From a virus, in the IMG/VR virus record IMGVR_UViG_3300046665_000493, positions 1-22,935 of that record: DNA of 22,935 bases. One strand, given 5' to 3'. Every line of letters begins with the position of its first letter. The stretch's first letter is position 1. A program made the position numbers and the translations under genes. This document shows positions 2,219-21,833 of this stretch, piece by piece. Under the pieces are notes generated by a model. It saw only the letters and a program-made list of their open reading frames with translations. It was not told the DNA's origin and did not search any database.

Positions 2219-2240
2219 TTGCATTCGCGTTCAAATTGCG
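2219..2240 (-). promoter_or_regulatory. Degenerate copy of the TTTGC-N6-GCAAA element upstream of thyA
   Basis: The plus strand reads TTGCATTCGCGTTCAAATTGCG, which contains TTGCATTC and an offset TTCAAATTGC. It lies in the short gap between the 162-aa gene and thyA, 23 nt from the thyA ATG. It is the weakest of the set, but its place fits the other copies. Confidence 0.4.
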
Positions 2241-2259
2241 CTTTGCTTCGGCCATGGTT

Positions 2260-2748
2260 TCAAACGGCCTCCGGGGGGATCGGGATCGACTTAAGGAGCA
2301 GATCAACCTGTGCCTTGAGCTGCCGGATCTCGTCGCGCTGAGCCCGGTTCTCAAAAAGCTTCTCGTTGTTGGACGTGATCAGCTCCTTGATGCGATCCTC
2401 CGCGACCGTGGCATCGACGAGCAGATCCTCCACCGCATCAAGCACGCGCGGTAGCGACCGCATCATGCCCGTCAGGAAGCGAGCGCGCTCGGCGGCGTCC
2501 GGCGTGTTGCCGGTCATCGCCAGCACCAAGCCGCTTCCAGCGATCCGGACCGAGTGCATCACGGTCTTCTCTGGCAACGAGGTGTTCTCGCGGGTCTTGG
2601 CGAGATGGGTCTTCATCTCATCGACATGACCTTCGTCCGTCAGCTCGGCTGAACCAACCCATTCCGGGTCCGCTACAAACTTCAGGAACTTCCTCGCTTC
2701 GCGAACGAACGAGAGCATCTCTTGGTCGGTGTTCTGCTTGTCTGACAT
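2260..2748 (-). CDS. Hypothetical coiled-coil protein (162 aa)
   Basis: A 162-aa, mostly helical acidic protein starting MSDKQNTDQEMLSFVREARK. The N-terminal half carries FLKFVADPEWVGSAELTD. The C-terminal quarter (DRIKELITSNNEKLFENRAQRDEIRQLKAQVDLLLK) is a convincing coiled coil of about 40 residues, suggesting dimerisation or attachment to a partner. No enzyme motif, signal peptide or membrane segment. It is the first gene after the strong terminator of the TAXI gene, so it probably needs its own promoter in the 2749-2820 gap, but I see no clear one. Family not recognised. Confidence 0.78.
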   Translation of the reverse strand: MSDKQNTDQEMLSFVREARKFLKFVADPEWVGSAELTDEGHVDEMKTHLAKTRENTSLPEKTVMHSVRIAGSGLVLAMTGNTPDAAERARFLTGMMRSLPRVLDAVEDLLVDATVAEDRIKELITSNNEKLFENRAQRDEIRQLKAQVDLLLKSIPIPPEAV

Positions 2749-2820
2749 TTTGATGCCTTATGCTGCTTCGCGTAGTTCGCGGGGTGAAGGAGTCGGAGTG
2801 ATCTGGAAAATTGACAAATG

Positions 2821-2864
2821 AAAAAAGGTGACGCGCCCCAGGGACAGAAAACCTGGGGCGCGTC
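2821..2864 (-). terminator. Strong Rho-independent terminator after the TAXI gene
   Basis: A perfect 13-bp inverted repeat (2830-2842 GACGCGCCCCAGG with 2852-2864) has a 9-nt loop. On the minus strand it is followed by ACC and six T (2821-2826). It lies 46 nt past the TAXI stop, in the 161-nt gap before the next gene. This is one of only two classical terminators in the window and isolates the accessory block from the thyA-int segment. Confidence 0.93.
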
Positions 2865-2909
2865 GGGGACGGCAGAGTTAGCGCTCGCCGGCCCTCCCCG
2901 CGGGGGTCG

Positions 2910-3794
2910 TTACTTCGGCTGAACGAGCTTCGCGATGTCGGGCTTGGCGTTGGCGAAGCCGTCAACGATCTTCTCGAAGTCGTTGCTGTGAGCCGCGATC
3001 CAGTCGCGGTTGGCAACGAACACGGCGTCGACCTGGATGGTGTCGACCGACTTCGAACCACCGAACATGCCGGTCGGCTGGATACCCTTGTAGGTGTTGG
3101 CCGGGATCTCGCCGTAGGTGTAGACGGGCTGACCGCGGCTATCCTTGGCGTTCTTCGTCATGTCGCGGTCGTCGGTGGCGACCAGGGCAACGCTGTCGGC
3201 GTACTTCGGCGCTTCGTTCTTGAGGAACGATGCATTCAAAGCCGTGACGATCAGGGCGCACTGCACTTCCGAACCGTCGTTGACGGCGCTCAGGGCGAGG
3301 GTGCCAGCCAGGTCGGACGTGCGAACCTTGCCGTAGCGCGCCTTGTCGGCTGCAACGAAAGCGGCCCACGTCGTGTTGGCGCCCGAACCTTCGGGACCGA
3401 TGGCGACCGTGAAGTTGGAGTTCAGGTCGACCATGCGGGCGGAGGTGTAGGCCTTGCGGTTGCAGATCAGGTTCGCCTGCTCCTGGTAGAGCACGCCGGC
3501 ACGCTGGAGCGCCGAGATCGCCTTGGCGTTGCGGCTGGAGTAAACGAGCAGCGCGTCGGACTGGACGAACGCGCCGTCGCACTCGCCAGCCGTGACCTTG
3601 TCGAGGTTGTCCAGCGAACCCTTGGTCTCGACGACCTCGACCGCCGGAGCGTGACGCTTCAGGTGCTGACCAGCAGCGTAGTAGTTGAGCTTCTGATTAC
3701 CGGTGCAGAGACGGAACTTGTCCGCAGCCTGCGCCGAGGTGGCCGCCGAGAGGCCGATGGTTGCTGCGGCGATCAACAGAAAGAGCTTCTTCAT
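2910..3794 (-). CDS. Secreted TAXI/TRAP-type periplasmic solute-binding protein
   Basis: A 294-aa protein with a clear Sec signal peptide: MKKLF, a hydrophobic core LLIAAATIGLSAA, and a cleavage site near TSAQA/ADKF (residues 1-23). The mature part has FRLCTGN, VEVVETKGSLDNLDKV, GECDGAFVQSDALLVYS, VAIGPEGSGANTTW and SEVQCALIVTALN. This matches the order seen in TAXI-family binding proteins: a glycine turn after strand 1, then 'G(S)xxNL..l..GexD.afvQsD'. Such proteins deliver small organic acids or amino acids to TRAP permeases, but no permease is encoded here. ATG 3794 is chosen because it gives the signal peptide and has AAGGAG upstream; an in-frame TTG at 3833 lies inside the operator-like motif. 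It ends at a strong terminator and looks like a lysogen-conversion (moron) gene. Substrate unknown; the family call is moderately sure. Confidence 0.82.
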   Translation of the reverse strand: MKKLFLLIAAATIGLSAATSAQAADKFRLCTGNQKLNYYAAGQHLKRHAPAVEVVETKGSLDNLDKVTAGECDGAFVQSDALLVYSSRNAKAISALQRAGVLYQEQANLICNRKAYTSARMVDLNSNFTVAIGPEGSGANTTWAAFVAADKARYGKVRTSDLAGTLALSAVNDGSEVQCALIVTALNASFLKNEAPKYADSVALVATDDRDMTKNAKDSRGQPVYTYGEIPANTYKGIQPTGMFGGSKSVDTIQVDAVFVANRDWIAAHSNDFEKIVDGFANAKPDIAKLVQPK

Positions 3795-3806
3795 GTAGTT
3801 CTCCTT

Positions 3807-3822
3807 GCCTGCATTTGCAGGC
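3807..3822 (-). promoter_or_regulatory. Inverted repeat in the TAXI gene leader
   Basis: GCCTGCA-TT-TGCAGGC is a perfect 7-bp inverted repeat sitting between the TTGCATTCAAACAAAC motif (3824-3840) and the ribosome-binding site of the TAXI gene. The same heptamer pair, with the arms in reversed order, occurs in the terB leader (6639-6657). It may be an RNA hairpin or a second operator. Confidence 0.5.
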
Positions 3823-3823
3823 G

Positions 3824-3840
3824 TTGCATTCAAACAAACG
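3824..3840 (-). promoter_or_regulatory. TTTGC-N6-GCAAA-type element upstream of the TAXI gene
   Basis: The plus strand reads TTGCATTCAAACAAACG, a near-palindromic copy (half-sites TTGC and ACAAA around the ATTCAA spacer). It lies 29 nt upstream of the ATG in the 54-nt gap after the 37-aa gene. It is nearly identical to the copies at 11778 and 17135. Confidence 0.65.
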
Positions 3841-3848
3841 CGAGGGGA

Positions 3849-3962
3849 CTAAAAAAACCAGCGGGAGATGGGCTTCCGCATGGTGATCTTGATGGCGGCG
3901 GTGACGATCAGATAGAGACCGCACGCATCGAGAAGGTGGTTGGCGAGAAAGACACCGTACAT
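3849..3962 (-). CDS. Small single-pass membrane peptide (37 aa)
   Basis: A 37-aa ORF from ATG 3960-3962, starting two nucleotides after the stop of the upstream gene and thus probably translationally coupled. The sequence MYGVFLANHLLDACGLYLIV then TAAIKITMRKPISRWFF has a hydrophobic span from about residue 3 to 25 and a basic C-terminal tail. This predicts one membrane helix with the tail in the cytoplasm. No homologue is recognised. It directly precedes the secreted TAXI binding protein. It could be a membrane partner of that protein, an inhibitor peptide, or an unrelated moron. Confidence 0.6.
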   Translation of the reverse strand: MYGVFLANHLLDACGLYLIVTAAIKITMRKPISRWFF

Positions 3963-3964
3963 GG

Positions 3965-4354
3965 CTAAGCCTCGATGGCGTTGGGCAGGCCCGTTGCCGC
4001 GTTGTAGGTCTGGTCTGCGGTGCGGGCGAGCCGGGTCGGGTCTTCGCCGTTCATCAGCAGACGCTTGATCTCCTGGACCAGGAACGCCACGCCGACGACG
4101 ATGTTCGGGATGTCGCCGCCGTAGCTGCGGAAGCCGCTCCAGTCCTTCGGATAGCAGTCCGGGATTTCCTTGAAGGCCCACTCCATATCGAAGCGGTGAT
4201 CAAAGGTCGCTTCCAGCTGGGCGAAACCGGCTGCGAAGAGCTGGCCCCTGGTTACGTCGGCTCTCTCGTTCTGCTGGCCCCACATCTTGTTCTGAAGGCC
4301 GATCTCGCCAAGTACCAGTTCGAGGGCCTTCGTCTCTGCTTCAGTTGCGTTCAA
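3965..4354 (-). CDS. Hypothetical helical phage protein, weakly NTP-pyrophosphohydrolase-like
   Basis: A 129-aa protein. I choose the TTG at 4352-4354 because AAAAGGAG lies 6-8 nt upstream; the longer ORF to 4387 begins inside the regulatory motif. The sequence has LVLGEIGLQNKMWGQQNERA near the start. Short phage proteins I associate with all-alpha pyrophosphohydrolases often begin with a similar 'EI..Q..KWG.QN' motif, but the EExxE metal site is not evident here. The middle (DMEWAFKEIPDCYPKDWSGF) and the hydrophobic helix PNIVVGVAFLVQEIKRLL are distinctive. Family call is weak; the existence of the gene is well supported. Confidence 0.72.
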   Translation of the reverse strand: MNATEAETKALELVLGEIGLQNKMWGQQNERADVTRGQLFAAGFAQLEATFDHRFDMEWAFKEIPDCYPKDWSGFRSYGGDIPNIVVGVAFLVQEIKRLLMNGEDPTRLARTADQTYNAATGLPNAIEA

Positions 4355-4380
4355 GGTCAGTCTCCTTTTGCAGTGGTGTA

Positions 4381-4394
4381 TTTGCATTCAAGCG
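4381..4394 (-). promoter_or_regulatory. TTTGC-N6-GCAAA-type element
   Basis: The plus strand reads TTTGCATTCAAGCG. The left half-site and spacer are perfect, and the right half-site is only GC. It lies 26 nt upstream of the TTG start at 4354, in the gap after the MazG-like gene. Confidence 0.55.
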
Positions 4395-4402
4395 CACGAG
4401 AA

Positions 4403-4425
4403 AGCAAGCGAAAAGTTCGCTCGCT
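4403..4425 (-). terminator. Hairpin after the MazG-like gene, possible weak terminator
   Basis: A 10-bp stem (4403-4412 with 4416-4425, one G-U pair) has a 3-nt loop and begins at the last base of the MazG-like stop codon. The minus-strand downstream run is only TTCTC, so termination would be inefficient. It could instead protect or process the transcript. Confidence 0.4.
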
Positions 4426-4838
4426 CAGTACTTCTTTCCGCCCGCCTTTGCGCGGTTCTCCAGCTTGTGGTCCGGCCGGGTCGCGTTGACCAAAGCCTTC
4501 GCCACGGCCGGCGCGCCCAGGTCGTATCCCATGGCGCCTGCCAAGTCGCCGACGCGGAACAGAACGTCGACCAGCTCAACGGCAATGCCGGGAAACTGGG
4601 GCAGCTTGTCGTCCATGGCGTCCGTGCGATGCGCTTCGAGTGCCTCGGAAGCTTCGCGCATGACGAGGGCCAACTTGACCGGAACCATCAGAGGGTTCTT
4701 GCGCAGATCTTCTCCGGTCACTGGGTCGATCCACCAATGGGCGGCCATCTTGTGGGTGATGCGGACGAGGGAGTTGATGGATCTCTGCAGCTCCTCGACG
4801 TCCGCTTGGTTGAAGTTGTCGTTCGCTACTACGGTCAT
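4425..4838 (-). CDS. MazG-like nucleoside triphosphate pyrophosphohydrolase
   Basis: A 137-aa all-alpha protein. Hallmarks are REASEALEAHR (Glu62 and Glu65, the ExxE metal site), DDKLPQFPGIAVELVDVLFR (Glu88 and Asp91, the ExxD site), VGDLAGAMGYDLGAP, and a tail with RPDHKLENRAKAGGKKY. This pattern is typical of phage and bacterial MazG-fold enzymes that hydrolyse (d)NTPs to (d)NMP and PPi. The likely roles are cleaning up unusual nucleotides or steering the dUTP/dUMP supply for ThyA; a (p)ppGpp-related role is also proposed for some MazG proteins. It overlaps the upstream gene by ATGA. The N-terminus has the ANDN motif common in proteins of rhizobial phages. Confidence 0.85.
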   Translation of the reverse strand: MTVVANDNFNQADVEELQRSINSLVRITHKMAAHWWIDPVTGEDLRKNPLMVPVKLALVMREASEALEAHRTDAMDDKLPQFPGIAVELVDVLFRVGDLAGAMGYDLGAPAVAKALVNATRPDHKLENRAKAGGKKY

Positions 4839-5164
4839 GATGCCTCCTTAAATCGGAACTCGTCAGCCAGGTCCTGGAACATCCGGACCACCTCTTGCTG
4901 ATTACGTCCAGTCTGGTCGTTCCAATCGAATGGATGCTTGCCCAGCTGGGTTTTTATCAATGGGACGAAGCGCGCATACGCGCCTCGGTCGTCTTCGCCA
5001 GCTGCTCGGCGGATCGCGCCCTCAATGTCGAAGGTGCGAGCCTCACGGCTGAATACGGGGACCGGCTTACCAAGCCCATCCCGTGCGCAGGTCTTCTGCG
5101 TCCACCGTCCGCGCTTTGAAAACAGCAACAGGCACCGTTCCACAATTTCGAGTTCGGAGAACAT
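4835..5164 (-). CDS. DUF6197-like hypothetical phage protein
   Basis: A 109-aa protein beginning MFSELEIVERCLLLFSKRGR, followed by WTQKTCARDGLG and FDIEGAIRRAAG. A first helix, then 'W.Q...ARD..G' and 'A....GA...A', is the layout I recall for DUF6197, a family of small actinobacterial and phage proteins of unknown function. The start at 5162-5164 lies within the 3' end of the upstream gene. The nearest GGAG is 13 nt away, farther than ideal. It ends in an ATGA overlap with the MazG-like gene. Assignment to the DUF is from memory of the pattern. Confidence 0.68.
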   Translation of the reverse strand: MFSELEIVERCLLLFSKRGRWTQKTCARDGLGKPVPVFSREARTFDIEGAIRRAAGEDDRGAYARFVPLIKTQLGKHPFDWNDQTGRNQQEVVRMFQDLADEFRFKEAS

Positions 5165-5363
5165 TGCGCTTGCTGAACTCCCATTCGAATGATGCGATAC
5201 GGCTGATGTCGCGGCGGCCGAGCCTCATGAGGTCGAACGCCAGGGTGTGGAGGGGGACTCTCGACGGGAGGGAGACGAAATCAGGCGGGGTGTAGACCGC
5301 CTGATCCGTTTCCTTGTCGATGATCCAGAGGCGCTTGTGCCTCTTGGCTACGAAGAGGTGCAT
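5067..5363 (-). CDS. Hypothetical protein (98 aa) with a long overlap into the next gene
   Basis: Starts at ATG 5361-5363 (MHLFVAKRHKRLWIIDKETD) with AGG 6 nt upstream. It continues YTPPDFVSLPSRVPLHTLAF and ISRIASFEWEFS. Codons up to about 5165 lie outside any other gene and look coding. The last 98 nt overlap the DUF6197-like gene in another frame, so the C-terminal 30 residues may be under dual constraint. No known family, signal or membrane segment. Basic, probably cytoplasmic. Confidence 0.62.
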   Translation of the reverse strand: MHLFVAKRHKRLWIIDKETDQAVYTPPDFVSLPSRVPLHTLAFDLMRLGRRDISRIASFEWEFSKRNVLRTRNCGTVPVAVFKARTVDAEDLRTGWAW

Positions 5364-5428
5364 CAGTGACCTGCAATGCAGCGGGCGACCCCGTAGGCGC
5401 AGATGCACCAAACGAACAGGATCGCCAA
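5363..5428 (-). CDS. Possible 21-aa hydrophobic peptide
   Basis: The 84-nt gap between the terC stop and the next ATG contains an open frame ending at 5363-5365, in a TGATG junction with the downstream start. From a TTG at 5426-5428 it encodes LAILFVWCICAYGVARCIAGH, a hydrophobic span rich in Cys. There is no ATG in frame and the AGGTGG is too close to the TTG, so translation is uncertain. The TGATG junction and membrane-like composition are the only support. Confidence 0.28.
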   Translation of the reverse strand: MAILFVWCICAYGVARCIAGH

Positions 5429-5447: not shown

Positions 5448-6119
5448 TCAGGCAGCCTCAGCAACGACCTCTTCCTTCTTGAAGAAGCGGACGCCGAAGC
5501 CGATGAGCAGGACCAGAGCCGTTCCCGAAGCGGCGGCCAGGTAGTGGCTCGCGTAGGGCGCTGCCCACGGGTCAGCAGCGATGATGCCGCCAGCAACCCA
5601 GCCCAGCAGAGCCGCGCCGGCCCAGGTCAAGATCGGGAATCGGCCGATGACCGCCGAGATGATGGCACTGCCGGCGATCACGAGCGGGATCGACAGGAGC
5701 ACGCCGAGTGCCATCAACAGGGTTGACCCATTCGACAGGGCGGCGATGGCCATGACGTTGTCGAGGCTCATGCTGGCGTCCGCGACCGCGATGGTCCAGA
5801 TCGCTGCGCCCAGGGTGATCACCTTCTTGGCGGGACCGGCTTCGTCGTCGCCACCCATGACCAGCTTGGCCGCGACCCAGAGCAGGAAGAGTCCGCCGAT
5901 GATGCTCAGGGCAGGCACGCCCAGGAGGAAGGAGGCGAAGAACGACATGACGACGCGCAGGCCGATGGCCGCCGCGGTGCCGCCGACGATGCCCCACTTC
6001 TGCTGGTTCTCCGGGAGCTGCCGGCTGACGAGGGCGATGACGACCGCATTGTCGCCGGAGAGCAGAAGGTCGATCCACACGATGCCAAGCAGCGCGACCC
6101 AGAAGATATGGTCAAACAT
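5448..6119 (-). CDS. terC: TerC/YjbE-family integral membrane protein
   Basis: A 223-aa multipass membrane protein. It has the two family signatures: WIDLLLSGDNAVVIALV near the N-terminus and ADASMSLDNVMAIAALS in the second half. These are the 'GDN' and 'S(L)DN' acidic motifs inside membrane helices 1 and 4-5. About seven hydrophobic segments are seen. Members of this family are linked to tellurite resistance and to metal-ion (notably Mn) homeostasis. Start at ATG 6117-6119 with TTGGAG 6 nt upstream; a longer in-frame start at 6131 lacks a ribosome site. The tail FFKKEEVVAEAA is cytoplasmic-like. It follows terB, and such a pair is unusual in a phage region. Probable lysogen cargo. Confidence 0.9.
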   Translation of the reverse strand: MFDHIFWVALLGIVWIDLLLSGDNAVVIALVSRQLPENQQKWGIVGGTAAAIGLRVVMSFFASFLLGVPALSIIGGLFLLWVAAKLVMGGDDEAGPAKKVITLGAAIWTIAVADASMSLDNVMAIAALSNGSTLLMALGVLLSIPLVIAGSAIISAVIGRFPILTWAGAALLGWVAGGIIAADPWAAPYASHYLAAASGTALVLLIGFGVRFFKKEEVVAEAA

Positions 6120-6182: not shown

Positions 6183-6620
6183 TTAGGCGGCGAGCAGCTT
6201 GTCGGCGTCGACGTTGATCAGCTTGCCGATCTCGGTGAGCACGACCTTCTCCTCGGGGCCGATGCCGCCCTGGTCTGCGGTGTCAGCCGCGATCAGGAAC
6301 ACGTCCTGGCGCACGCCGATGTCGCGGGTCTGGAGCGCCTCGATTGCACGCTTGTTCTCCATGCGGCCGGCACGGGACTTGGCGCGGGTGAGGGCGGCGT
6401 TCAGAGCCTCCTCGATCTGCGAGCCGCTGTAGGAGGCGGACACGATCGGGTTGGCCTGCATGCCGGAGATGGCAGCATCGACCTCGGAGTCGTCGATCGA
6501 GCCGTCAGCCGCGGTCACGTTGGCAGCCGCCGCAGCAACACCAGCGAGGAACACCTTGTCGCCCGTGTAGCTGACGAGGGACTTGTTGGCCTGGTCGAGG
6601 AATTTCTTGAAGAAGCTCAT
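6183..6620 (-). CDS. terB: TerB-like protein
   Basis: A 145-aa helical protein starting MSFFKKFLDQANKSLVSY. It has the TerB signatures FLAGVAAAAANVTAADGSID (acidic loop with AADG.ID), SEVDAAISGM and a second acidic loop TADQGGIGPEEKVVLTEIG. In TerB these conserved acids bind divalent metal, and the protein works with TerC-like membrane proteins at the cytoplasmic face. ATG 6620 is chosen because GAAAGGAAA precedes it; the longer ORF start at 6671 falls in the regulatory motif. It is co-directional with and just upstream of terC. Tellurite resistance, stress or phage-defence roles known for Ter systems are possible but unproven here. Confidence 0.88.
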   Translation of the reverse strand: MSFFKKFLDQANKSLVSYTGDKVFLAGVAAAAANVTAADGSIDDSEVDAAISGMQANPIVSASYSGSQIEEALNAALTRAKSRAGRMENKRAIEALQTRDIGVRQDVFLIAADTADQGGIGPEEKVVLTEIGKLINVDADKLLAA

Positions 6621-6638
6621 GTTGGTTTCCTTTCGATT

Positions 6639-6657
6639 TGCAGGCTTCCGGCCTGCA
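6639..6657 (-). promoter_or_regulatory. Inverted repeat in the terB leader
   Basis: TGCAGGC-TTCCG-GCCTGCA is a perfect 7-bp stem with a 5-nt loop, lying between the TTTGCATTC motif (6661) and the terB ribosome site. It uses the same heptamer as the TAXI leader repeat, with the arms swapped. Confidence 0.5.
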
Positions 6658-6660
6658 CGG

Positions 6661-6676
6661 TTTGCATTCACGCACG
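6661..6676 (-). promoter_or_regulatory. TTTGC-N6-GCAAA-type element upstream of terB
   Basis: The plus strand reads TTTGCATTCACGCACG. The left half-site is perfect and the right half-site is partial (GCACG). It sits in the 117-nt gap between the ParB-like gene and terB, 40 nt from the terB ATG. The rest of the gap shows only a short CCGGA/TCCGG inverted repeat. Confidence 0.5.
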
Positions 6677-11777: not shown

Positions 11778-11793
11778 TTTGCATTCAAACAAA
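11778..11793 (-). promoter_or_regulatory. TTTGC-N6-GCAAA-type element upstream of the nrdJ transcript
   Basis: The plus strand reads TTTGCATTCAAACAAA, differing from a perfect palindrome by one base. It starts 14 nt from the ATG, directly abutting AAGGAG. It is among the best copies and would control the 112-aa gene, the 94-aa gene and nrdJ. Confidence 0.68.
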
Positions 11794-12017: not shown

Positions 12018-12468
12018 CTTTTCCCCGCTTCTCGAACGGCCGACTGGGCCACTGTTTTTTCCGTCGAGGCGGCGCGGGAGCCTCCACATCGGGGTCCACC
12101 TTCGCCAGCATTCGACGTCTGAACTCTTCGGTCTGTCTGGCGACCCGCTTGGTGTGGGCGATCTCTTGCACGTCACCGCGGGTCAGCTCCTCACTGGAGC
12201 CGAACGTCTTCTTCGCGTGACAGTCTGCGTGCTTGGCAAAAATGAACTCTGGGTCGTTCGACCGCGGAGTCGTGTCCTTGGTGTCAGCGTCCCAGCAGCG
12301 AAGCTGGATCGCCGGGACGTGATCGAATTGGGTGTCGTCGAGCTTGCCCAGTCGCTCGCCGCATTTGGCGCAGAGACTGTGCTGTCTGATCACCACCTCC
12401 AGCTTCACGGTGACCGGTATGGCCTTCCGGAAGCCTGGAGGGGGAGCAAGGTCGAGGACGGTTTGCAT
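11980..12468 (-). CDS. HNH-family endonuclease-like protein
   Basis: A 162-aa protein. A zinc-knuckle pair (SLCAKCGERL, Cys33/Cys36) is followed by DTQFDHVPAIQLR (His50, the general base in the first H box), then NDPEFIFAKHADCHAKKTFG (Asn71, His80, Cys83, His84). This is the C..C-H-N-H layout of HNH nucleases. The last 60 residues are basic and disordered (PPRRKKQWPSRPFEKRGKDG). ATG 12468 is chosen; the 57-residue extension to 12639 would run through the motif at 12481 and the 60-aa gene, and it looks non-coding. The ribosome site is weak. The role may be DNA processing, nicking or homing. It is free-standing rather than inside an intron. Confidence 0.8.
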   Translation of the reverse strand: MQTVLDLAPPPGFRKAIPVTVKLEVVIRQHSLCAKCGERLGKLDDTQFDHVPAIQLRCWDADTKDTTPRSNDPEFIFAKHADCHAKKTFGSSEELTRGDVQEIAHTKRVARQTEEFRRRMLAKVDPDVEAPAPPRRKKQWPSRPFEKRGKDGKARSRGQKGS

Positions 12469-12480: not shown

Positions 12481-12496
12481 TTTGCATTTGAGCAAA
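12481..12496 (-). promoter_or_regulatory. Perfect TTTGC-N6-GCAAA palindrome upstream of the HNH gene
   Basis: The plus strand reads TTTGCATTTGAGCAAA: perfect half-sites with a 6-bp spacer, 12 nt from the ATG. A further AAGCAAATG half-site follows at 12502-12510. It is in the short gap after the 60-aa gene. Confidence 0.7.
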
Positions 12497-14893: not shown

Positions 14894-15145
14894 TCAGATC
14901 AGCGGGAGTTGCCGCGCCTTGTGCTTGCGCGGGGCCGGCGGCGGCGGTGCGTCCTTGGCAATCTCACCAAGATCCCGGATGTGGTCGCGGCAGGCGTTGG
15001 CCAGCGCGTCGATCTGCTCCTGGGACAGCTCGTACTTCTTCCGGTGGGCGGTCTCGCCCGACCACCAGGCACGAAGAGCGCTGGCGCTGCGCGCAGTCTT
15101 GATTGCGAACAGCGCCATCTGGCAGTAAGCCTCAGCTCGGGTCAT
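14894..15145 (-). CDS. Hypothetical phage protein (83 aa)
   Basis: An 83-aa protein starting MTRAEAYCQMALFAIKTARS. It has ALRAWWSGETAHRKKYELSQ, then EQIDALANACRDHIRDLGEI and a Pro/Lys-rich tail (DAPPPPAPRKHKARQ). Two helical segments around a 'LR.WW..E...R..Y.L' core recall short rhizobial-phage proteins of unknown role. The start at 15143-15145 overlaps the upstream gene's 3' end by 14 nt; the longer ORF to 15196 is a shadow. Confidence 0.68.
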   Translation of the reverse strand: MTRAEAYCQMALFAIKTARSASALRAWWSGETAHRKKYELSQEQIDALANACRDHIRDLGEIAKDAPPPPAPRKHKARQLPLI

Positions 15146-15290
15146 GCCACTTGCCGAGGAATCTCGCCGCCTGCTCGTAGAAGGGCAACCAGCCACCTTG
15201 ATGCACGGTGCTCTGGTTGGCCTTCAGCCAGTTGCGGTACAGCTTCTTGGCCAGCTGCACCGCCTTGTCGTCGTGCTTCGGATTAGCCAT
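15132..15290 (-). CDS. Small hypothetical protein (52 aa)
   Basis: A 52-aa ORF not easily found because of its size. ATG 15288-15290 overlaps the upstream stop by 8 nt (ATGGCTAA). The protein MANPKHDDKAVQLAKKLYRN continues WLKANQSTVHQGGWLPFYEQ and AARFLGKWHDPS. It is a basic, helical small protein that fills an otherwise empty gap between two accepted genes. Function unknown. The coupling junctions and the gap are the main support. Confidence 0.66.
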   Translation of the reverse strand: MANPKHDDKAVQLAKKLYRNWLKANQSTVHQGGWLPFYEQAARFLGKWHDPS

Positions 15291-16140
15291 TCGCGGCTTC
15301 CTTCGCCGGCTTGGACCAGCCGAGATCCTTCAGGCGCTGGGTAGCGAAGGCACGCAGATCCGAGACCTCGTCCTTCGACATCTCAGCCATCAAGGCCTTC
15401 ACGTCCTTGCTGTTCATGAAGTCCGTGACCTGCTTGATCTCCTTGCAGTTCCGCAGGTCGGTCTCGGCCTTGATGATCTGGTCCTCGATGCGATTGCCGC
15501 CACGCTGCTCGCCGCCATCGCTGCGGTTGTCGTTGCTGGCCTGATCGCGGCGATCATCGCGGCGGTTGTCCTGACGATCATCACGACGGTCGTCACGGTC
15601 GTCACGGTCGTCACGGTCGCCACGGTCATCACGACTATCGCCACGCGCCGGGCTCTTGAAGTCGTCAGCTTCCTCGGACGAGTAGGCGTCGCCGTGCAGA
15701 TCGGCCAGCTTGAGGATGACGCGATCCTTCGCCCGCTTCTCGGCCATGGCGTACGGATAGGCAGCCTGGGAACCGCTGACGATGTAGTTGCCGAAGCAGC
15801 CATCCTTCGGCTCCTTGATCGGCTTGTTCCAGTTGTTCTTCCTGCCGGTGTCGATCAGCTGGGTGATCTTGGCCTCGCCGATGGACCACTCCATCTTGTC
15901 ACCGACGCTGCCGAACACGATGATCACAGCCTCGTCCGCCTCAGCGCGGATGATCTGCGGCTTGTCGTAGCGGATGCCCATCGCAGCACCGAGGCGCTCG
16001 ACGTCCTTGTGCTTGACGACCGGAGTGCCCTGGACTTCCCAGATGGCATCCTTGTCGATGTCGACCTTGTGCTTGTCGAAGACGTCGTAGATCTTGTCGA
16101 GCCGGGCGCGATTGTTCCCGTTGTTGTTCTGACGTGCCAT
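15283..16140 (-). CDS. Putative single-strand annealing recombination protein with a DDR-rich insert
   Basis: A 285-aa protein. The N-terminal domain (1-165) has DEAVIIVFGSVGDKMEWSIG, EAKI, a central 'N(W)NKPIKEPKDGCFGNYI' and SGSQAAYPYAMAEKRAKDRV followed by ILKLADLHG. The 'IGEA...YPxAMAEKRAxDRxxLKL' block is the part I associate with phage annealing proteins of the Rad52/Sak-like group. Residues about 168-210 are a low-complexity RDDRDDR stretch, followed by a short helical C-terminal domain (KDVKALMAEMSKDEVSDLRA). The gene sits 11 nt after a YqaJ-like exonuclease, the usual exonuclease-annealase pairing. Likely role: annealing resected phage DNA. Family call inferred from the block and the neighbour. 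Confidence 0.66.
   Translation of the reverse strand: MARQNNNGNNRARLDKIYDVFDKHKVDIDKDAIWEVQGTPVVKHKDVERLGAAMGIRYDKPQIIRAEADEAVIIVFGSVGDKMEWSIGEAKITQLIDTGRKNNWNKPIKEPKDGCFGNYIVSGSQAAYPYAMAEKRAKDRVILKLADLHGDAYSSEEADDFKSPARGDSRDDRGDRDDRDDRDDRRDDRQDNRRDDRRDQASNDNRSDGGEQRGGNRIEDQIIKAETDLRNCKEIKQVTDFMNSKDVKALMAEMSKDEVSDLRAFATQRLKDLGWSKPAKEAANG
15583..15636 (-). repeat. Tandem 9-bp repeats encoding RDD units
   Basis: Consecutive GTCACGGTC units (plus strand) at 15592, 15601 and 15610, with variant units on both sides, encode DRD-type residues in the insert of the annealing protein. A similar but more degenerate tract is in ssb (21180-21400). They are coding low-complexity tracts, prone to slippage. 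Confidence 0.75.
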
Positions 16141-16151: not shown

Positions 16152-17123
16152 TTATGCCGCTTCTTCAGCGGCGGGTTTCTCGTTGGTGTTGGCGGCTTCC
16201 GGCTTCTTGCGGGAGGCCCGGGGTTTCGGCGCAGGCTTCTCTTCCTCAACCGGCGGCGGCAGGTTCGCGGCGTCAGCCACGGCCTCCTTGATGGCCTCCT
16301 CGTCGAACTTGAACAGCTGCTTGCCGTCCTTCGACAGGTTGATCGCAACGCCCTTGCCGGCTGCCGACTTAGCGTCGGCCGGGAAGAGCTTCTTGATCGC
16401 CTTCTTCGCCTTCTCGTGCCTCTCGACAGACGGCTTCGTGCTGAGCAGCGTGAAGGCCAGATCGCACCACTCGTTGTTGGTGGTCATGTCGTGGATCTTG
16501 ATGCGCTCGGCGATCGGGATCTCGATCTTCGGCGCGCCCGGCGTGCGGCCGGTGACGACGCAGTCCCAGAAGTCCTTCTCGGCTTCGAGCAGGGCGAGCT
16601 GGTAGAACAGGTCAGCCTCGACATCGAGAATGACGTGCTGAGCGGCGCCGGTCAGGATCGACAGGTATCCCTTCGGCAGATCCGTCACCATCATGTTGTG
16701 CTGGACCTGCGGGTAATACTTCTCGTACGCCTCCTGCTTGTTGAAGCCGAAGGGGAACATGAACTTGAACTCGACGATGGCGATCGGGTCCGACTCCGGC
16801 GTCCGGCGCACCAAGCCGTCGAGCGTCGTGTGAGCCAGCTCCCAGGCGTAGTAGTGGACCTTCTTCTGCTCGTCGGTGACGTGCATATCCATCTCGTCCT
16901 CGAACAAGTCGGCGTTCAGAGGCTCGGTCAGGTTGCCAAGGTTGATCAGGATCACCTCGTCGAGGTTCTCCGGAACAGCTTCGCCGCGCTTCTCCAGCCA
17001 CAGGCGCTCGATCGCGTCCTGGTCGCCGGACATGATGATCTTGGCGTCGGATCCGCCGATCGACTTCATACGGGCGGCGCGAGCCTCTTCGCTCATGCCG
17101 ATGTGGCCAGTTCGCTTCCTCAT
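16152..17123 (-). CDS. YqaJ-family (lambda-exonuclease-like) viral recombinase
   Basis: A 323-aa protein with a PD-(D/E)XK nuclease core: RMKSIGGSDAKIIMSGD (helix with the Ser/Asp), LGNLTEPLN (Glu67), AHTTLDGLVRR (Asp102), IAIVEFKFMF (Glu118-x-Lys120) and YYPQVQHNMMVTD (Gln139, Gln141). This is the E-D-ExK-Q series of YqaJ/Exo enzymes that resect dsDNA ends 5' to 3'. The C-terminal 60 residues are Pro/Lys/Ala-rich and disordered. ATG 17123 is chosen because the longer start at 17144 is inside the regulatory motif and AAGGA lies 8 nt upstream of 17123. It pairs with the annealing protein downstream and would repair or recombine phage DNA. Confidence 0.88.
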   Translation of the reverse strand: MRKRTGHIGMSEEARAARMKSIGGSDAKIIMSGDQDAIERLWLEKRGEAVPENLDEVILINLGNLTEPLNADLFEDEMDMHVTDEQKKVHYYAWELAHTTLDGLVRRTPESDPIAIVEFKFMFPFGFNKQEAYEKYYPQVQHNMMVTDLPKGYLSILTGAAQHVILDVEADLFYQLALLEAEKDFWDCVVTGRTPGAPKIEIPIAERIKIHDMTTNNEWCDLAFTLLSTKPSVERHEKAKKAIKKLFPADAKSAAGKGVAINLSKDGKQLFKFDEEAIKEAVADAANLPPPVEEEKPAPKPRASRKKPEAANTNEKPAAEEAA

Positions 17124-17134
17124 GGTGCAAATCC

Positions 17135-17149
17135 TTGCATTCAAACAAA
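17135..17149 (-). promoter_or_regulatory. TTTGC-N6-GCAAA-type element upstream of the recombination pair
   Basis: The plus strand reads TTGCATTCAAACAAA, 11 nt from the YqaJ ATG and filling the gap after the DnaQ-like gene. It is nearly identical to the copies at 3824 and 11778. Confidence 0.65.
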
Positions 17150-18075: not shown

Positions 18076-18697
18076 GAGCCGCGGTCTTTTCGAGCTCGAT
18101 GCCGGTCCGCACTTCAAAGCGGCGCAGCATCGCGATGACTTCGTCCGCGTTGAACTTCGAGTAGAGACCGTCCAGCGACGCCGGCTGATCCTTGAAGAAG
18201 GTCGAGGTCGGCTTCTCGATCGGATAGATGTCCTCGAACTGGACCAGCATCAGCACCGTGTCGTTGCCGGCGATGCGGATGGTGTGCAGGTCATCGGCCT
18301 GCATGTAGTAGGACTCGCCGTTGATGAACCGGCTGCGGTGAGCCTCGTACAGCATCTCCTCACCAGCGAAGGTGAAGCCGTTGCCGCCGTTCATCGGGGT
18401 GCGGTATTCGAACCAGTTGAAGATCTTGCCCAGTTCGTCGTTCATGGTCCGGCGGAACCAGACGTTCTCGACCGCGCCGGCCGCGACGTAGGTCTCGAAG
18501 TCGTAGCGATGATCGTGCGGCGCGATGACCTCGGGCATGGAGTTCACGTCGCCGTCGAAGAAGTACAGCTTGACCGTCTCCGTCTCCGAACGCTGGAGGC
18601 AGAGATAGTGGAAGCCCTTGGTGTGGAGGTCCTTGAAGGAATGCTCGACGATATGGTCGATATCCAGTCTCTGGGGGATCGGCAGATCACGCAGCAT
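18062..18697 (-). CDS. Cupin-like protein, putative metal-dependent enzyme
   Basis: A 211-aa protein. A cupin motif 1 is visible at residues 61-74, PHDHRYDFETYVAAG: His61-x-His63-x4-Glu68-x5-Gly. A motif-2-like histidine follows at His138 in YYMQADDLHTIRIAGNDTVL. These residues suggest an RmlC-like barrel holding Fe or another metal, as in small dioxygenases or isomerases. The flanks are EVIAPHD..., VENVWFRR and FNWFEYR. The gene overlaps the RlmN-like gene by 11 nt, so the two are co-translated and may act on one substrate. Fold inference is fair; catalytic function is not established. Confidence 0.62.
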   Translation of the reverse strand: MLRDLPIPQRLDIDHIVEHSFKDLHTKGFHYLCLQRSETETVKLYFFDGDVNSMPEVIAPHDHRYDFETYVAAGAVENVWFRRTMNDELGKIFNWFEYRTPMNGGNGFTFAGEEMLYEAHRSRFINGESYYMQADDLHTIRIAGNDTVLMLVQFEDIYPIEKPTSTFFKDQPASLDGLYSKFNADEVIAMLRRFEVRTGIELEKTAARGAA

Positions 18698-19640
18698 CGA
18701 TAGCTCCTGGGGTGTGAACGAGGGGAAGGCCGCGGCCGATGCTCGGCTTGGCCAATTCGGGGTGTTCCTTCATCCAGTTCTGGACGAACCAGAGCTGGCC
18801 GCAGCCGCCGCCGATGGTGTCCTGGCCGGCGGGATCGAACACACGGACGTCGAAGCCGCGCTCGACCAGCTTGATGCTGAAGTCGCTCGCCAGCCCGCGC
18901 TGGTGGTCGTTGGTGGCCGGCAGGCCTTCGGAGCGCTCGCAGACCACGCTGACGGTGGCGTTCCAGATTTGCGGATCGAACAGCGCCAACAGCCGATCAG
19001 CGTCCTCTGCCGAGGAGTTGCCGTCGTGGGCGCAGTAGTTGAAGAACGGGTGGCGGCCGGTGACCTCGTTCCAGATCTTGCCTTCGCGGGCGATCTGAGC
19101 GAGCGTCAGCTTTGCCTTGAACGGAACCAGGGCGTCACGGGCAGCGTCCGTCGACTCGTGGACGGAGAACTGCAGGCCGATCGTCGGGATCTCCATCGAG
19201 ATTTCCCGCACCATCTCGTAGTTGATGCTGGGCGCCGAGGTCGAGATCAGCAACGCGGCGTTGGGATAGCTCTTGTAGAGCTGGCGGAGCGCCGGGATCA
19301 GGCCCTTCAGGTTCAGGAGCGGCTCACCCATGGACATGAACATGATCTGGAGACGCTTCATCTCCGAAGCGCGGATGCCGGTCTGCTCGATGGAGTGGCC
19401 GACCTGGTCGACGATCTCCTCGGTGGATAGCGATCTGACGAAGTTGTCGCCGGCACCGCAGAAGCGGCAGCCGACCGGGCAGCCCGATTGCGTCGAGCAG
19501 CAGATCACGGTGCGCGTGGCATAGTCGGGGTACTTGTAGAGCACCGACTCCGCGACTGCGGTGGCGCTGCTGAACACGAACTTCGCAACGTTCTGAGCAG
19601 CATCGTCGATGCGCCTCACGTTGGTCCAGGTCTGTCTCAT
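18687..19640 (-). CDS. RlmN-like radical SAM methyltransferase
   Basis: A 317-aa protein with the radical SAM cluster motif SGCPVGCRFCGAG (Cys54, Cys58, Cys61; CxxxCxxC). RTVICCSTQSGC places Cys47 where RlmN/Cfr have the first cysteine of the catalytic pair, and AGQDTIGGGCGQLW places Cys280 at the methyl-carrier cysteine. FMSMGEPLLN supplies the SAM-binding GEP motif, as in RlmN. Hence it has the complete residue set for C2-adenosine methylation in RNA. It is about 60-70 residues shorter than cellular RlmN because the N-terminal accessory domain is largely missing. The substrate could be 23S rRNA, tRNA or something phage-specific. It overlaps the upstream gene by ATGA and the cupin-like gene by 11 nt. 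Confidence 0.88.
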   Translation of the reverse strand: MRQTWTNVRRIDDAAQNVAKFVFSSATAVAESVLYKYPDYATRTVICCSTQSGCPVGCRFCGAGDNFVRSLSTEEIVDQVGHSIEQTGIRASEMKRLQIMFMSMGEPLLNLKGLIPALRQLYKSYPNAALLISTSAPSINYEMVREISMEIPTIGLQFSVHESTDAARDALVPFKAKLTLAQIAREGKIWNEVTGRHPFFNYCAHDGNSSAEDADRLLALFDPQIWNATVSVVCERSEGLPATNDHQRGLASDFSIKLVERGFDVRVFDPAGQDTIGGGCGQLWFVQNWMKEHPELAKPSIGRGLPLVHTPGAIDAA

Positions 19641-20227
19641 GCGTAAAATTCCTTGAAAGCGATACCGTCCGCCGGAACGATGCCGGGGGTTTTCTTCAGG
19701 CCGGTCAGGATGAAACCGATCGTCCTGGTGCGAATGTCGTAGGAGACCTGCCGATCCCGCGTGCGGGGGCTGGTCGGCCGGTAGATCTTGTGGACCAGCT
19801 CGGAGTCGCCGCCGCGAGCGAGGGCGATTGCCGCCTTGCTCAGGCGCTCCGGGATGCGGGCAGAGTTGAGGAAGCGCATCCAGGCGAGGACGCCGAGAGC
19901 GCGATCAACGTCGTTCCGCTGCGGCGAGGTCTTTGCCTTGCCGTCGAATGGCTTCATGGCGCAGAGCAGCCTGATCTTCTCGATCTCGACCATCTCGGCA
20001 CGCGACATGCCGACCATGTTCCAGCCGCCAGATCTCTGACCGGACGTAAGCCATCGCCGCTCAGTGTCCGGCGTCTTGTCGATGACCTCGACGGCCTCGA
20101 CGAGAAGTTGCCAGATCACGTCGGAATGACGCGCTTGATCACCCTTCAGCGCCACAGCCAGCTCGCCACCATGGGCGAGCCAGCCGAGCGTGTTCGTGCG
20201 ATCCTCAAGCAGGGACGAAGTTGTCAT
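19637..20227 (-). CDS. Hypothetical protein, possible DUF6362-like
   Basis: A 196-aa protein. Central stretch TERRWLTSGQRSGGWNMVGM is followed by RAEMVEIEKIRLLCAMKPFD, then NDVDRALGVLAWMRFLNSAR and a basic C-terminal region with RDRQVSYDIRTRTIGFILTG. 'ERR.L..G.RS.W..v......', then 'D..D..L.WLRwL', then a helix-turn-helix-like end, is how I recall DUF6362, a phage family with a sigma-factor-like tail. If so, it might be a DNA-binding regulator. Here the tail could bind DNA, but I cannot confirm the helix-turn-helix. It overlaps the upstream gene by 23 nt. Confidence 0.6.
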   Translation of the reverse strand: MTTSSLLEDRTNTLGWLAHGGELAVALKGDQARHSDVIWQLLVEAVEVIDKTPDTERRWLTSGQRSGGWNMVGMSRAEMVEIEKIRLLCAMKPFDGKAKTSPQRNDVDRALGVLAWMRFLNSARIPERLSKAAIALARGGDSELVHKIYRPTSPRTRDRQVSYDIRTRTIGFILTGLKKTPGIVPADGIAFKEFYA

Positions 20228-20555
20228 TCCTGATATCCGAGCCCGTGGTTTTGCTGCCGGAGACCCGGCGGCGGGTTGCGCGGTATTCGAAGAGGTTCGC
20301 GCCGATGCGGAGCTGCGTCAGATGAAGCAGGCCCTGCTTCGAGTCCTTGAAGGCTCGATCGGCAACGAAGTGGAGAGCGCTGATGCGAGCGCGCTCGGTT
20401 GAGCGGAGGACGTCATCGGCCGAGACCACCACCTGACGGTCGTACTGGAGGTCGCCCTGCCAGTAGACGAGGACGTCGCCATCGGCGGCTCCCTTCATCC
20501 AGTCGTAGTATTCAGCCAACGCGCCCGGACCGATTTCCAGGACGGTTCTCGTCAT
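20205..20555 (-). CDS. Hypothetical phage protein (116 aa)
   Basis: A 116-aa protein starting MTRTVLEIGPGALAEYYDWM. It continues KGAADGDVLVYWQGDLQYDR, then a helix (STERARISALHFVADRAFKD) and SKQGLLHLTQLRIGANLFEY, ending in a basic tail (RATRRRVSGSK). The pattern 'GD.lvYw.GdL..dR', then 'G.l.L.Q.R.....fEY.A.R' matches a recurrent family of small rhizobial-phage proteins of unknown role, possibly DNA-associated. It shares an ATGA with the upstream stop. Confidence 0.72.
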   Translation of the reverse strand: MTRTVLEIGPGALAEYYDWMKGAADGDVLVYWQGDLQYDRQVVVSADDVLRSTERARISALHFVADRAFKDSKQGLLHLTQLRIGANLFEYRATRRRVSGSKTTGSDIRNDNFVPA

Positions 20556-20968
20556 TGCGCCACCAGCTCCGTCAGCAGAGCTGCGTGGATCTCGACGACC
20601 GTCGTCAGGCCCTCGATGATGCGACCGAGCTGAGCGACAGCCTCGATCTTGTCATCCTGGGACATCTCGATCGGATCGAAGTCGAAGTCCGGCTCGAACA
20701 CGACTTCCAGCTCGTCCTCGTCGTCCTCGTCATCGTCGGCGGGGTCGGTCTCGTCGCCGCTGTCGCGGGCGAGGCCGGGATCGAACTGCGCGGTCAGGAA
20801 GTCGGGGAAGCCCGAGCCTTCACCGAGGCACAAGCCGGGCGGGCAGTCGCACAGCTCAGGCTTCTCGCCGAAGGCACCGAGCAGGGTCAGGAAGCTGAGC
20901 AGCTCCGGGGACCAGCCAGCCTTGGCCAGGGCGTCCGCGCTGATGTCTTCCGGGTTGAAGGCTTTCAT
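20552..20968 (-). CDS. Acidic hypothetical protein (138 aa)
   Basis: A 138-aa protein from ATG 20968 with GGAG 5 nt upstream. It starts MKAFNPEDISADALAKAGWS, has a Cys cluster CDCPPGLC, then an acidic low-complexity stretch DETDPADDDEDDEDELEVVF (residues about 72-91) and a helical C-terminus (LGRIIEGLTTVVEIHAALLT). Strong negative charge suggests DNA mimicry or a flexible linker, but this is speculation. The longer ORF to 21067 crosses the ssb terminator and is not real. It leads the transcript down to dnaQ. Confidence 0.72.
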   Translation of the reverse strand: MKAFNPEDISADALAKAGWSPELLSFLTLLGAFGEKPELCDCPPGLCLGEGSGFPDFLTAQFDPGLARDSGDETDPADDDEDDEDELEVVFEPDFDFDPIEMSQDDKIEAVAQLGRIIEGLTTVVEIHAALLTELVAQ

Positions 20969-20978
20969 TCGTACTCCG

Positions 20979-20994
20979 TTTGCAATCGTGCAAA
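20979..20994 (-). promoter_or_regulatory. Perfect TTTGC-N6-GCAAA palindrome upstream of the 20968 transcript
   Basis: The plus strand reads TTTGCAATCGTGCAAA: perfect half-sites around a spacer that differs from the usual ATTCAA. It lies 10 nt from the ATG and just after the ssb terminator. The conserved half-sites with a changed spacer argue that the half-sites are what is recognised. Confidence 0.72.
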
Positions 20995-21006
20995 TCATTG
21001 GATGTG

Positions 21007-21050
21007 AAAAAGGGGCGCCCTGGCACGCACAACCAAAACAGGGCGCCCCT
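21007..21050 (-). terminator. Strong Rho-independent terminator after ssb
   Basis: A perfect 12-bp AGGGGCGCCCTG inverted repeat (21011-21022 with 21039-21050) has a 16-nt loop and is followed on the minus strand by a T-run (21007-21011). It is 73 nt past the ssb stop. It would end the helicase-ssb transcript, so the 20968 gene needs its own promoter. Confidence 0.92.
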
Positions 21051-21055
21051 CGATA

Positions 21056-21074
21056 TTCCCCGCTCAACGGGGAA
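21056..21074 (-). other. Second small hairpin ahead of the ssb terminator
   Basis: TTCCCCG/CGGGGAA, 7 bp with a CTCAA loop, lies between the ssb stop and the terminator and lacks a T-run. It could stabilise the ssb mRNA 3' end. Confidence 0.5.
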
Positions 21075-21122
21075 GCTCAGATCAGTCCGAACCGCATCCG
21101 GTCCAGGGTCGACAGCCGTTCA

Positions 21123-21782
21123 TCAAAACGGAATGTCGTCGTCCATGTCCTTGTTGCGACCCGAGGAGGCGGTGTTGCCACCGCGGCTGCCGCCACGGTC
21201 GTCACGGCCACGGTCGTTGTCACGGTCATTGCCACGGCTGCCACCACGGCTGCTGCCACGGTCATCGCCGCCACGGTCGTCGTCGCGGGAGTTGCCACGG
21301 CTCGACGAGGAACCGCGGCTACCGCGGTCATCCTTGCCGCCGCGATCGTCGCGGTCACGGCTGTTGCCGCTGCTGCGGGAGCTTCCGCCACGATCATCAC
21401 GGTCGCCGCCGCTCTTGTTGTCGTTGTCGAACGACAGCTTCATCAGCGCATCGATCGGGGCGAAGGCGGGGATGACGATCTCGGTCGAGTAGCGATCCTT
21501 GCCGTCCTGATCTTCCCATTTGCGGGTCTGGATCTTGCCTTCGAGGCGGACGAGGTCACCCTTCTTCAGGTACTTCTCGACGAACTCGATCGTCTTCTCG
21601 TTCCAGACGACGATGTTGTGCCACTCGGTCTTCTCCTGCTTTTCGCCGGAGCGCTTGTCCTTCCAGCTCTCGCTGGTGGCGACGCTGAAGTTGGCGACGG
21701 AAGAACCGTTCGAGAGGTTCTTCACCTCGGGGTCCTTGCCGAGGCGGCCGATCAGCTCAACCTTGTTCAAACTTGATGCCAT
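21123..21782 (-). CDS. ssb: Single-stranded DNA-binding protein
   Basis: A 219-aa SSB. The OB-fold (1-110) has [73 protein letters not shown] and the usual YSTEIV strand. Residues about 120-205 are a long [10 protein letters not shown] low-complexity linker, longer than in most bacterial SSBs. The tail is the canonical acidic DMDDDIPF, which docks partner proteins. Start has AAGGAG 8 nt upstream. It sits after the primase-helicase and before the terminator; it coats ssDNA during replication. The DDR linker resembles the insert of the annealing protein at 15283. Confidence 0.95.
21180..21400 (-). repeat. Low-complexity repeat tract in ssb
   Basis: Degenerate repeats of CCACGGTCGTC-like units encode the [14 protein letters not shown] linker of SSB. 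It is a coding repeat, likely to vary in length between relatives. Confidence 0.7.
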
Positions 21783-21800
21783 TGGTCTCTCCTTCTGTGG

Positions 21801-21833
21801 TTTGCATTAGCAGTTCGTTTGCATTCAAGCAAG
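21801..21833 (-). promoter_or_regulatory. Double TTTGC element upstream of ssb
   Basis: Two copies: a half-site TTTGCATTAG at 21801-21810 and a near-palindrome TTTGCATTCAAGCAAG at 21818-21833, both in the 58-nt gap between the helicase stop and the ssb ATG. This is the only tandem arrangement seen. The nearer copy is 18 nt from the ATG. Confidence 0.62.

Follow-up and report, generated by a model that had tools for sequence, protein, structure and literature searches.

The virus record IMGVR_UViG_3300046665_000493 (hereafter the window, i.e., the whole 22,935-base stretch of DNA that was analysed) carries in its intergenic gaps a dispersed palindromic element, TTTGC-N6-GCAAA, which recurs throughout the genomes of related Bradyrhizobium phages. 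The element is probably the operator of a phage-encoded master repressor, and its copies would form a phage-wide regulon of operators and stoperator-like sites; the odds for this reading of the sequence data are mainly carried by the distribution of the sites, by their conservation, and by a candidate repressor gene. According to the original prediction, the window holds a dispersed and co-oriented regulon like that of mycobacteriophage L5. This view is strengthened by the comparison of genomes, by the temperate family, and by the candidate repressor, while a minority of the sites proved to be ordinary promoter-operators and the half-sites are dyad-symmetric.

The closest annotated relative of the window is Bradyrhizobium phage BDU-MI-1 (KY940711, 121,342 bp), which covers 42% of it at 77.9% identity. 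A scan based on the class II ribonucleotide reductase of the window, which is named after the BDU-MI-1 annotation, yielded 53 viral loci, several of them on records of 109-128 kb, and the window comes from a family of temperate Bradyrhizobium phages of about 120 kb, which infect root-nodule bacteria. Clade A refers here to nine records including the window and BDU-MI-1, and the other clades are those of G009, G013, G010, and G014. The records are not independent, as orthologous sites repeat among them, and some loci are near-identical or come out of one record.

Distribution of the sites and prophage state

Among 5-mer palindromes with spacers of 0-12 bp, TTTGC-N6-GCAAA ranks first in five of six genome-length records and third in the sixth (G016), with 5-12 exact copies per genome-length record versus about 0.1 expected. 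It was found in 17 of the 25 records with a relative of the reductase, and the pattern read backward in one of the 25. As for the shorter form TTGC-Nk-GCAA, counted for k of 0-12 in 16 records, k = 6 is the sole clear peak in 11 of them (9-25 copies versus at most five elsewhere), and the window has four copies at k = 6 versus none at the other spacings. G013 possesses 20 copies at k = 6, yet also 12 at k = 9 and eight at k = 10; in G012 there is no excess at k = 6, and a homologue of the candidate repressor was likewise not found there. Moreover, at least 80 stretches in viral contigs match CTTGCTTGAATGCAAA exactly, many of them in contigs of this phage family and the rest elsewhere. Within the window, TTTGC-N6-GCAAA with up to two mismatches has 12 matches versus 6.5 +/- 2.5 in shuffled sequence, a modest excess that three of 100 shuffles reach, and TTTGCATTCAA at the same tolerance has 16 versus 2.9 +/- 1.8 (reached in 0 of 100 shuffles). 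An origin by chance or base composition, which the modest palindrome count of the window taken alone might favor, is practically negligible, because that count is outweighed by the genome-wide and comparative tests, namely enrichment, spacing, orientation, and conservation in the same gaps.

Sites were counted by half-site and spacer rules, which exclude those with more than one half-site mismatch or more than two spacer mismatches (and thereby lose the window sites at 4381 and 20979), and genes were called with our own caller, which recovers 204 of the 211 annotated ends of BDU-MI-1 in a total of 226 calls. Over 13 records, 298 of 335 sites are intergenic, with shares of 34/35 in BDU-MI-1 and 77-100% in the others; 11 records (seven of clade A and four others) have 20-34 intergenic sites each, and the shorter window and G011 have six each. 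In a consensus scan of BDU-MI-1 allowing up to four mismatches to TTTGCTTGAATGCAAA, in which some places are counted on both strands, 46 of 51 strand-hits are intergenic by the deposited annotation, though 87% of the genome is annotated. The 298 sites precede 164 downstream-gene groups, and therefore no single gene family was counted repeatedly. In gaps between co-directional genes, 222 sites lie along transcription and 23 opposite to it (133:20 in the nine clade A records and 89:3 in G009, G013, G010, and G014); these orientation counts exclude sites within called genes and gaps between oppositely directed genes. The enrichment in gaps and the strand bias, both proposed for testing beforehand, are borne out by these figures.

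The sites are also retained in the same gaps of related phages, as had been anticipated. Clade A orthologues of window genes have a site in 25 of 32 cases if the window gene has one and in 2 of 124 if it does not, and the corresponding figures are 63/97 versus 11/530 for genes of BDU-MI-1, and 8/12 versus 5/42 and 13/25 versus 11/99 in other clades. For instance, wherever an orthologue of the window gene starting at 12468 is present (12 other records), the gap before it holds a site, whose spacer varies by clade. Taken together, a wider scan, shuffled controls, and related phages, the tests asked for in advance, all favor the motif.

The distance from site to start codon has its mode at about 10-17 nt, and most other sites lie at 20-150 nt. 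This near-start mode, together with the orientation, would also suit a start-associated RNA or translation element, that is, a transcribed hairpin or the binding of a regulator at the ribosome site, like the start-associated sequence (SAS) of cluster K phages, and UUUGC...GCAAA is able to pair (mean -3.8 kcal/mol). However, changes in the stem are uncompensated (0/17 doubly changed intergenic strand-hits in clade A), many sites are located 30-150 nt upstream and some inside promoters, and the structure just upstream of the sites has mean z values of -0.66 and -0.72 versus -0.80 at site-free gaps, which makes such an element quite improbable. A terminator hairpin before the sites, visible by eye at some of them, was rejected, with no enrichment over control gaps.

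The temperate nature that the original prediction had suspected is supported by G016, a relative contained in a 144.7 kb contig of Bradyrhizobium hipponense aSej3. A 48-bp stretch of the 3' part of tRNA-Met is repeated there at 97.9% identity, the left repeat lying next to a phage integrase gene (Pfam 1.9e-10); a major facilitator superfamily (MFS) transporter gene lies at the left edge of the contig, and to the right of tRNA-Met are genes without match in the compared relatives. As judged from this insertion, the phage family is temperate, the prophage state being shown for one relative. In the 8.8 Mb B. hipponense genome, all eight matches to YTTGCNTGAATGCAAA are on the prophage contig, as are six of the 18 places of TTTGC-N6-GCAAA; the other 12 exceed the backward control (six) but lack the motif spacer. 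It is very improbable that the phages exploit the binding sites of a host regulator: some sites do use host-type promoters, but the confinement of YTTGCNTGAATGCAAA to the prophage contig and the differing spacers among phage clades speak against it.

Spacer classes and a candidate repressor

In the logos, from which near-identical flanks are excluded, the dyad widens to about CRYTTGC-N6-GCAAAYG. Half-sites change on both sides, in some cases evenly (TAGC in 11 left and 15 right half-sites). CG at -2/-1 of the motif start, present above all in clade A, is mirrored downstream, whereas TG at -10/-9 has no mirror image. This one-sided TG characterizes clade A (18/30 in BDU-MI-1) and is weaker outside it (9/31, 9/28, 7/23, and 4/20), with G014 having it more at another offset. 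A third half-site about 11 bp further on is clear in G013 alone. Among exact TTGC-N6-GCAA copies, the commonest spacer is TTGAAT in BDU-MI-1 (10/22), followed by ATGAAT and ACGAAT, while it is AGGAAT in G009 (15/25) and GCGATT in G013 (13/20). That the half-sites stay constant and the gaps recur with the spacer changed genome-wide may be understood because a trans-acting reader would leave that pattern; it looks as if whole regulons had been switched together under one trans-acting protein.

A conserved candidate for such a protein is encoded by BDU-MI-1 and its relatives:

BDU-MI-1, 15009-15698: candidate repressor, coding sequence of 229 amino acids, annotated as hypothetical (ARQ95258.1), with an XRE/Cro-C1-type helix-turn-helix (HTH) domain (HTH_26 4.5e-6) and a C-terminal part that may be CI/LexA-like

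The candidate matches PHROG transcription-regulator families, and one of five scanned family members has a weak S24 match (E 0.0017, below the cut-off). The gene of the candidate is located near a RuvC-like gene and a replication initiator, and the divergent gap at 16659 contains a site. Of the 35 records in which the reductase has a relative, 20 encode a homologue of the candidate, which in one case is weak and partial; single-query scans with the G013 and G010 repressors gave matches in their own records alone. The 31 loci with a repressor, some of them near-identical or from one record, contain 140 spacing-6 sites, whereas the means at other spacings add up to 10.5. As well, the repressor leader carries two degenerate sites, whose positions are conserved in every one of the 13 clade A-type leaders that were aligned. 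The phage repressor postulated in the original prediction thereby gains a conserved XRE-type candidate in the family that bears the sites, and its binding to them is what we infer from sequence.

The AlphaFold model of the candidate is confident in the HTH part alone (mean pLDDT, i.e., predicted local distance difference test, 49.5), the best Foldseek match is HipB (E 0.017), and the repressor profile had no match among PDB sequences at E 1. The putative catalytic Ser column varies among S/T/A/V and the Lys position seems to be Val, both places being assigned by the LexA pattern, and self-cleavage of the candidate is therefore doubtful. The recognition helix (PST-LR) is nearly constant, and the adjoining loop, which presumably touches the central bases as in 434-type repressors, varies in four classes that parallel the spacer classes. 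The NP-type loop goes with TTGAAT-like spacers, NNKNHTYLPS with AGGAAT, NDERNHHSLS with GCGATT, and NSK-H-FNIS with AAGCAT/AAGAAT, a match resting on these four classes, which are few.

Two further observations concern repressor-like genes. An extra partial match to the C-terminal part of the repressor adjoins the repressor in G020 (25142-25534, L086) and G015 (15234-15611, L157), and G016 encodes a second protein with a repressor-like HTH (18926-19153, L066) within a longer frame.

In the mechanism that we propose, a predicted repressor dimer would read the TTGC...GCAA half-sites over the 6-bp spacer and, in a lysogen, would occupy about 20-35 sites along the prophage of about 120 kb, keeping the whole virus silent. 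A site overlapping a sigma-70-like promoter would block initiation, and the two degenerate leader copies would let the repressor regulate itself. A promoterless site before a gene would act as an oriented, stoperator-like roadblock, and those near the ribosome site may block transcription; this roadblock action is a separate suggestion to which we give rather less than even odds.

Promoter overlap and competing readings

Among clade A sites at least 30 nt from the start codon, TGnTA (with T at 23-25) is present in 22 of 91 versus a shuffled mean of 0.7 (maximum four), and 20 of these 22 have T at 24, i.e., TTGCNN-17-TA; at the distant sites of other clades, it is present in 4 of 53 versus 0.4 shuffled (maximum three). 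At sites no more than 18 nt from the start, the counts (2/62 in clade A and 2/36 in the others) are inside the shuffle range. In a second arrangement, TTGAC is found at -7 of 12 sites with TA 17 nt on in all 12, and since one orthologous gene is concerned, these represent one conserved promoter; with TTGAC at -6, TA comes next in two of nine sites. The ordinary promoter-operators have two forms, in which either the left half-site serves as the -35 element with an extended -10 17 nt on, or the site fills the spacer of TTGAC-17-TA. Across the 298 intergenic sites, the extended -10 occurs in 32 (12 downstream-gene groups, three of which span 10, 7, and 5 records) and the TTGAC form in 14 (three groups), and 89 (~30%, 54 groups) are near a start without a detected promoter. 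Promoter overlap is real but belongs to a minority, and most sites have no visible promoter. TTGAC-17-TA within 100 nt above near-start sites was found in 4 of 68 versus 4 of 1524 control genes, which is over control but rare.

Two known promoter elements were tried and rejected. A sigma-54 promoter (taken as TGGC-N7-TTGCW with GG at -25/-24) fits the TG-TTGC spacing but lacks the G of the -24 column (2%), and the T4 MotA box was set aside, the fixed-distance -10 being absent at most sites.

The sites might instead be phage promoters themselves, with the motif plus TG/CG read by a phage-specific sigma factor, activator, or polymerase and transcripts starting just past GCAAA. The orientation bias and the conserved asymmetric spacer would be well accounted for in this way. 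Also in line with it are, in clade A, the CG at -2/-1 and the TG at -10/-9, the start codon often 10-17 nt past the site, and the lack of another visible promoter at most sites. However, some of the sites are embedded in promoters of host type whose spacer is 17 nt, which is the place of a repressor, the symmetric half-sites changed on both sides are not promoter-like, and the site pairs in the repressor leader point away from the gene. Promoters for a phage-specific factor, already named as an option in the original prediction, are the main rival reading, considered unlikely and judged less probable than repressor sites.

Several points weigh against repressor operators. A recognizable promoter is present at only 46 of the 298 intergenic sites (~15%, at most 15 downstream-gene groups), four groups (10, 7, 5, and 12 records) account for 34 of these 46, and 163 sites (~55%, 112 groups) are neither promoter-associated nor near a start. 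The spacers are loose in G010 (AAGCAT 4/20) and G014 (AAGAAT 4/10), and some half-site changes are lopsided, such as TTGT (19 left, 6 right), TTGA (1 left, 10 right), and TTGA in G013 (0 left, 9 right). A symmetric dimer explains neither the orientation bias nor the one-sided TG at -10/-9. G031 has the repressor yet one spacing-6 site in 21.7 kb, and G015 has three in 34.8 kb; both leader sites point away from the repressor gene, and in the repressor leaders of distant clades the site pair was not obvious by eye. Moreover, repressor and motif are linked by co-occurrence, location, and architecture, and the sites might be read by a different conserved protein of the phage.

If the operator reading is followed further, an ordinary dimeric XRE repressor may have given rise to stoperator-type immunity in proteobacterial phages, with polarity provided by the asymmetric 6-bp spacer in a symmetric operator, and the immunity group would shift when the repressor loop and about 30 spacers switch together. 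We regard this scenario as tentative, more so than the roadblock.

Related systems, and sites and genes of the window

The 434-type CI repressor is an XRE dimer that reads 4-bp half-sites around a 6-bp spacer. The Bradyrhizobium phages resemble it in the 4-bp half-sites, the 6-bp spacer, and the XRE protein, whereas the few operators of 434 are confined to one switch and the Bradyrhizobium phages have tens of sites genome-wide. General traits of a phage-repressor regulon, namely a conserved HTH protein, sites in promoters and at its own locus, and a prophage state, were all found.

As in cluster A mycobacteriophages such as L5, Bxb1, and TipsytheTRex, the sites are dispersed along transcription, some in promoters and most not. 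According to the parts of two reports that cover them, cluster A stoperators are 20-30 dispersed and oriented sites, and their motif and the repressor vary together from phage to phage; the 13-14 bp sites of L5 lack dyad symmetry and are bound by a repressor monomer that has two DNA-binding domains (PMC6550527, PMC9283540). Unlike these, the Bradyrhizobium phage sites are dyad-symmetric (TTGC-N6-GCAA), with an XRE protein of 229 aa as the candidate repressor; of the L5-type features, the number of dispersed intergenic sites and the orientation are found, and the asymmetric site without dyad is not.

A likeness also exists to MrpR and SPBRE of SPbeta, where, in the part of the source concerned, a single master repressor of a large prophage acts on an element repeated in its intergenic regions, MrpR having a tyrosine recombinase fold and SPBRE being a 15-bp motif in promoter regions (PMC10516654); a word search of the text of that article gave no occurrence of "orientation". 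The SAS and extended SAS (ESAS) of cluster K are likewise asymmetric, mostly of one orientation, placed directly before start codons, and kept before the same gene families, as one section of the literature describes (PMC3203893). SAS is GGGATAGGAGCCC, from which the Bradyrhizobium phage motif differs, and ESAS are, in the passages dealing with them, 17-bp repeats whose spacer is in most cases 4-13 bp long (PMC3203893, PMC12699233), their consensus differing between subclusters (part of PMC12699233). By analogy, the system works like those of L5, SPbeta, and cluster K, but we do not assign it to any of them. Among the papers listed by searches of the open-licence PMC literature, none describes the motif, as judged by titles and the beginnings of abstracts.

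In the parts of the literature cited above, the published stoperators belong to phages of actinobacteria, and the repressor in the structure is a monomer. If a second case were established, with dyad-symmetric sites, it would reveal which features are general among orientation, dispersal, and concerted site evolution. Five spacer types on one constant pair of half-sites make a joint change of specificity in a repressor and tens of sites directly testable. Such a case would also delimit immunity groups among the phages of a symbiont important in agriculture.

The genes of the window lie on the - strand, the one + call of the caller being a 105-base frame, and the core along transcription is therefore TTGAATGCAAA; the motif so read is YTTGC-NNGAAT-GCAAA. 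Eight of the ten copies originally listed are real:

21818..21833, - strand: site CTTGCTTGAATGCAAA, upstream of ssb (ATG 21782; SSB Pfam E 2.3e-37)
~21832-21804, - strand: promoter-operator at the 21818 site, with -35 TTGCTT (~21832-21827), 17-nt spacer, and extended -10 (TGC)TAATGC (~21809-21804)
21801..21816, - strand: -10 region (TGCTAATGCAAA) of the 21818 promoter, no independent copy
20979..20994, - strand: site TTTGCACGATTGCAAA, exact TTTGC-N6-GCAAA, 10 nt before ATG 20968
17134..17149, - strand: site TTTGTTTGAATGCAAG; a YqaJ-type recombinase gene (Pfam 9.8e-13) starts 10 nt downstream at ATG 17123
12481..12496, - strand: site TTTGCTCAAATGCAAA, exact TTTGC-N6-GCAAA, 12 nt before ATG 12468, between TTGACT and TACCAA (17-nt spacer)
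11778..11793, - strand: site TTTGTTTGAATGCAAA, immediately upstream of AGGAG and ATG 11763
6661..6676, - strand: site CGTGCGTGAATGCAAA with a damaged upstream half; a weakly TerB-like gene has its likely ATG (~6620) 40 nt downstream
4381..4396, - strand: site TGCGCTTGAATGCAAA, upstream half altered at two positions; TTG 4354 lies 26 nt downstream; outside the counted set
3823..3838, - strand: site TTTGTTTGAATGCAAC; an NMT1_3-type protein gene starts 28 nt downstream at ATG 3794
2219..2234, - strand: half-site only (CGAATGCAA), before thyA (thymidylate synthase Pfam 1.1e-124), no full site

The copy at 2219 was dropped, its right half-site being present with no TTGC at the proper spacing, and so was that at 21801, which belongs to the -10 region of the 21818 promoter. 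The two palindromes described as perfect, at 12481 and 20979, are both exact; likely start codons lie at the proposed 10-40 nt from the eight sites, and all eight share the orientation relative to transcription. The 20979 site is absent from the counted set because its spacer breaks the clade A rule; in BDU-MI-1, TTTGCACGAATGCTAA lies 10 nt upstream of the gene that follows ssb, an equivalence judged by gene order. The variant at 4381 is also present in BDU-MI-1, at 33224.

Products encoded by the window include thymidylate synthase, a TerC-family protein, the class II ribonucleotide reductase, YqaJ recombinase, an RNase_T exonuclease, and SSB. The TerC-family membrane protein (5448-6119, Pfam 1.8e-41) has a weakly TerB-like gene immediately upstream (6183-6671, Pfam E 0.0054, below the cut-off). 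The NMT1_3-type gene (2910-3833, Pfam 6.2e-11) seems, by eye, to encode an N-terminal signal peptide, and a radical SAM protein (18687-19640, Pfam 2.4e-7) is by eye RlmN-like.

Finally, a second palindrome is repeated in these phages, TGTCA-N7-TGACA, which takes the form TGTGA-N7-TCACA in G016; G or C runs often border it. It clusters inside the replication-initiator gene of BDU-MI-1 and G001, and other, partly non-coding clusters were also identified; these clusters look like origin iterons:

L003, 17065-17175: TGTCA-N7-TGACA cluster
L081, 8870-9000: TGTCA-N7-TGACA cluster
L083, 5856-5940: TGTCA-N7-TGACA cluster
L067, 2915: second palindrome
L068, 17356-17440: TGTCA-N7-TGACA cluster
L075, 3166-3230: TGTCA-N7-TGACA cluster

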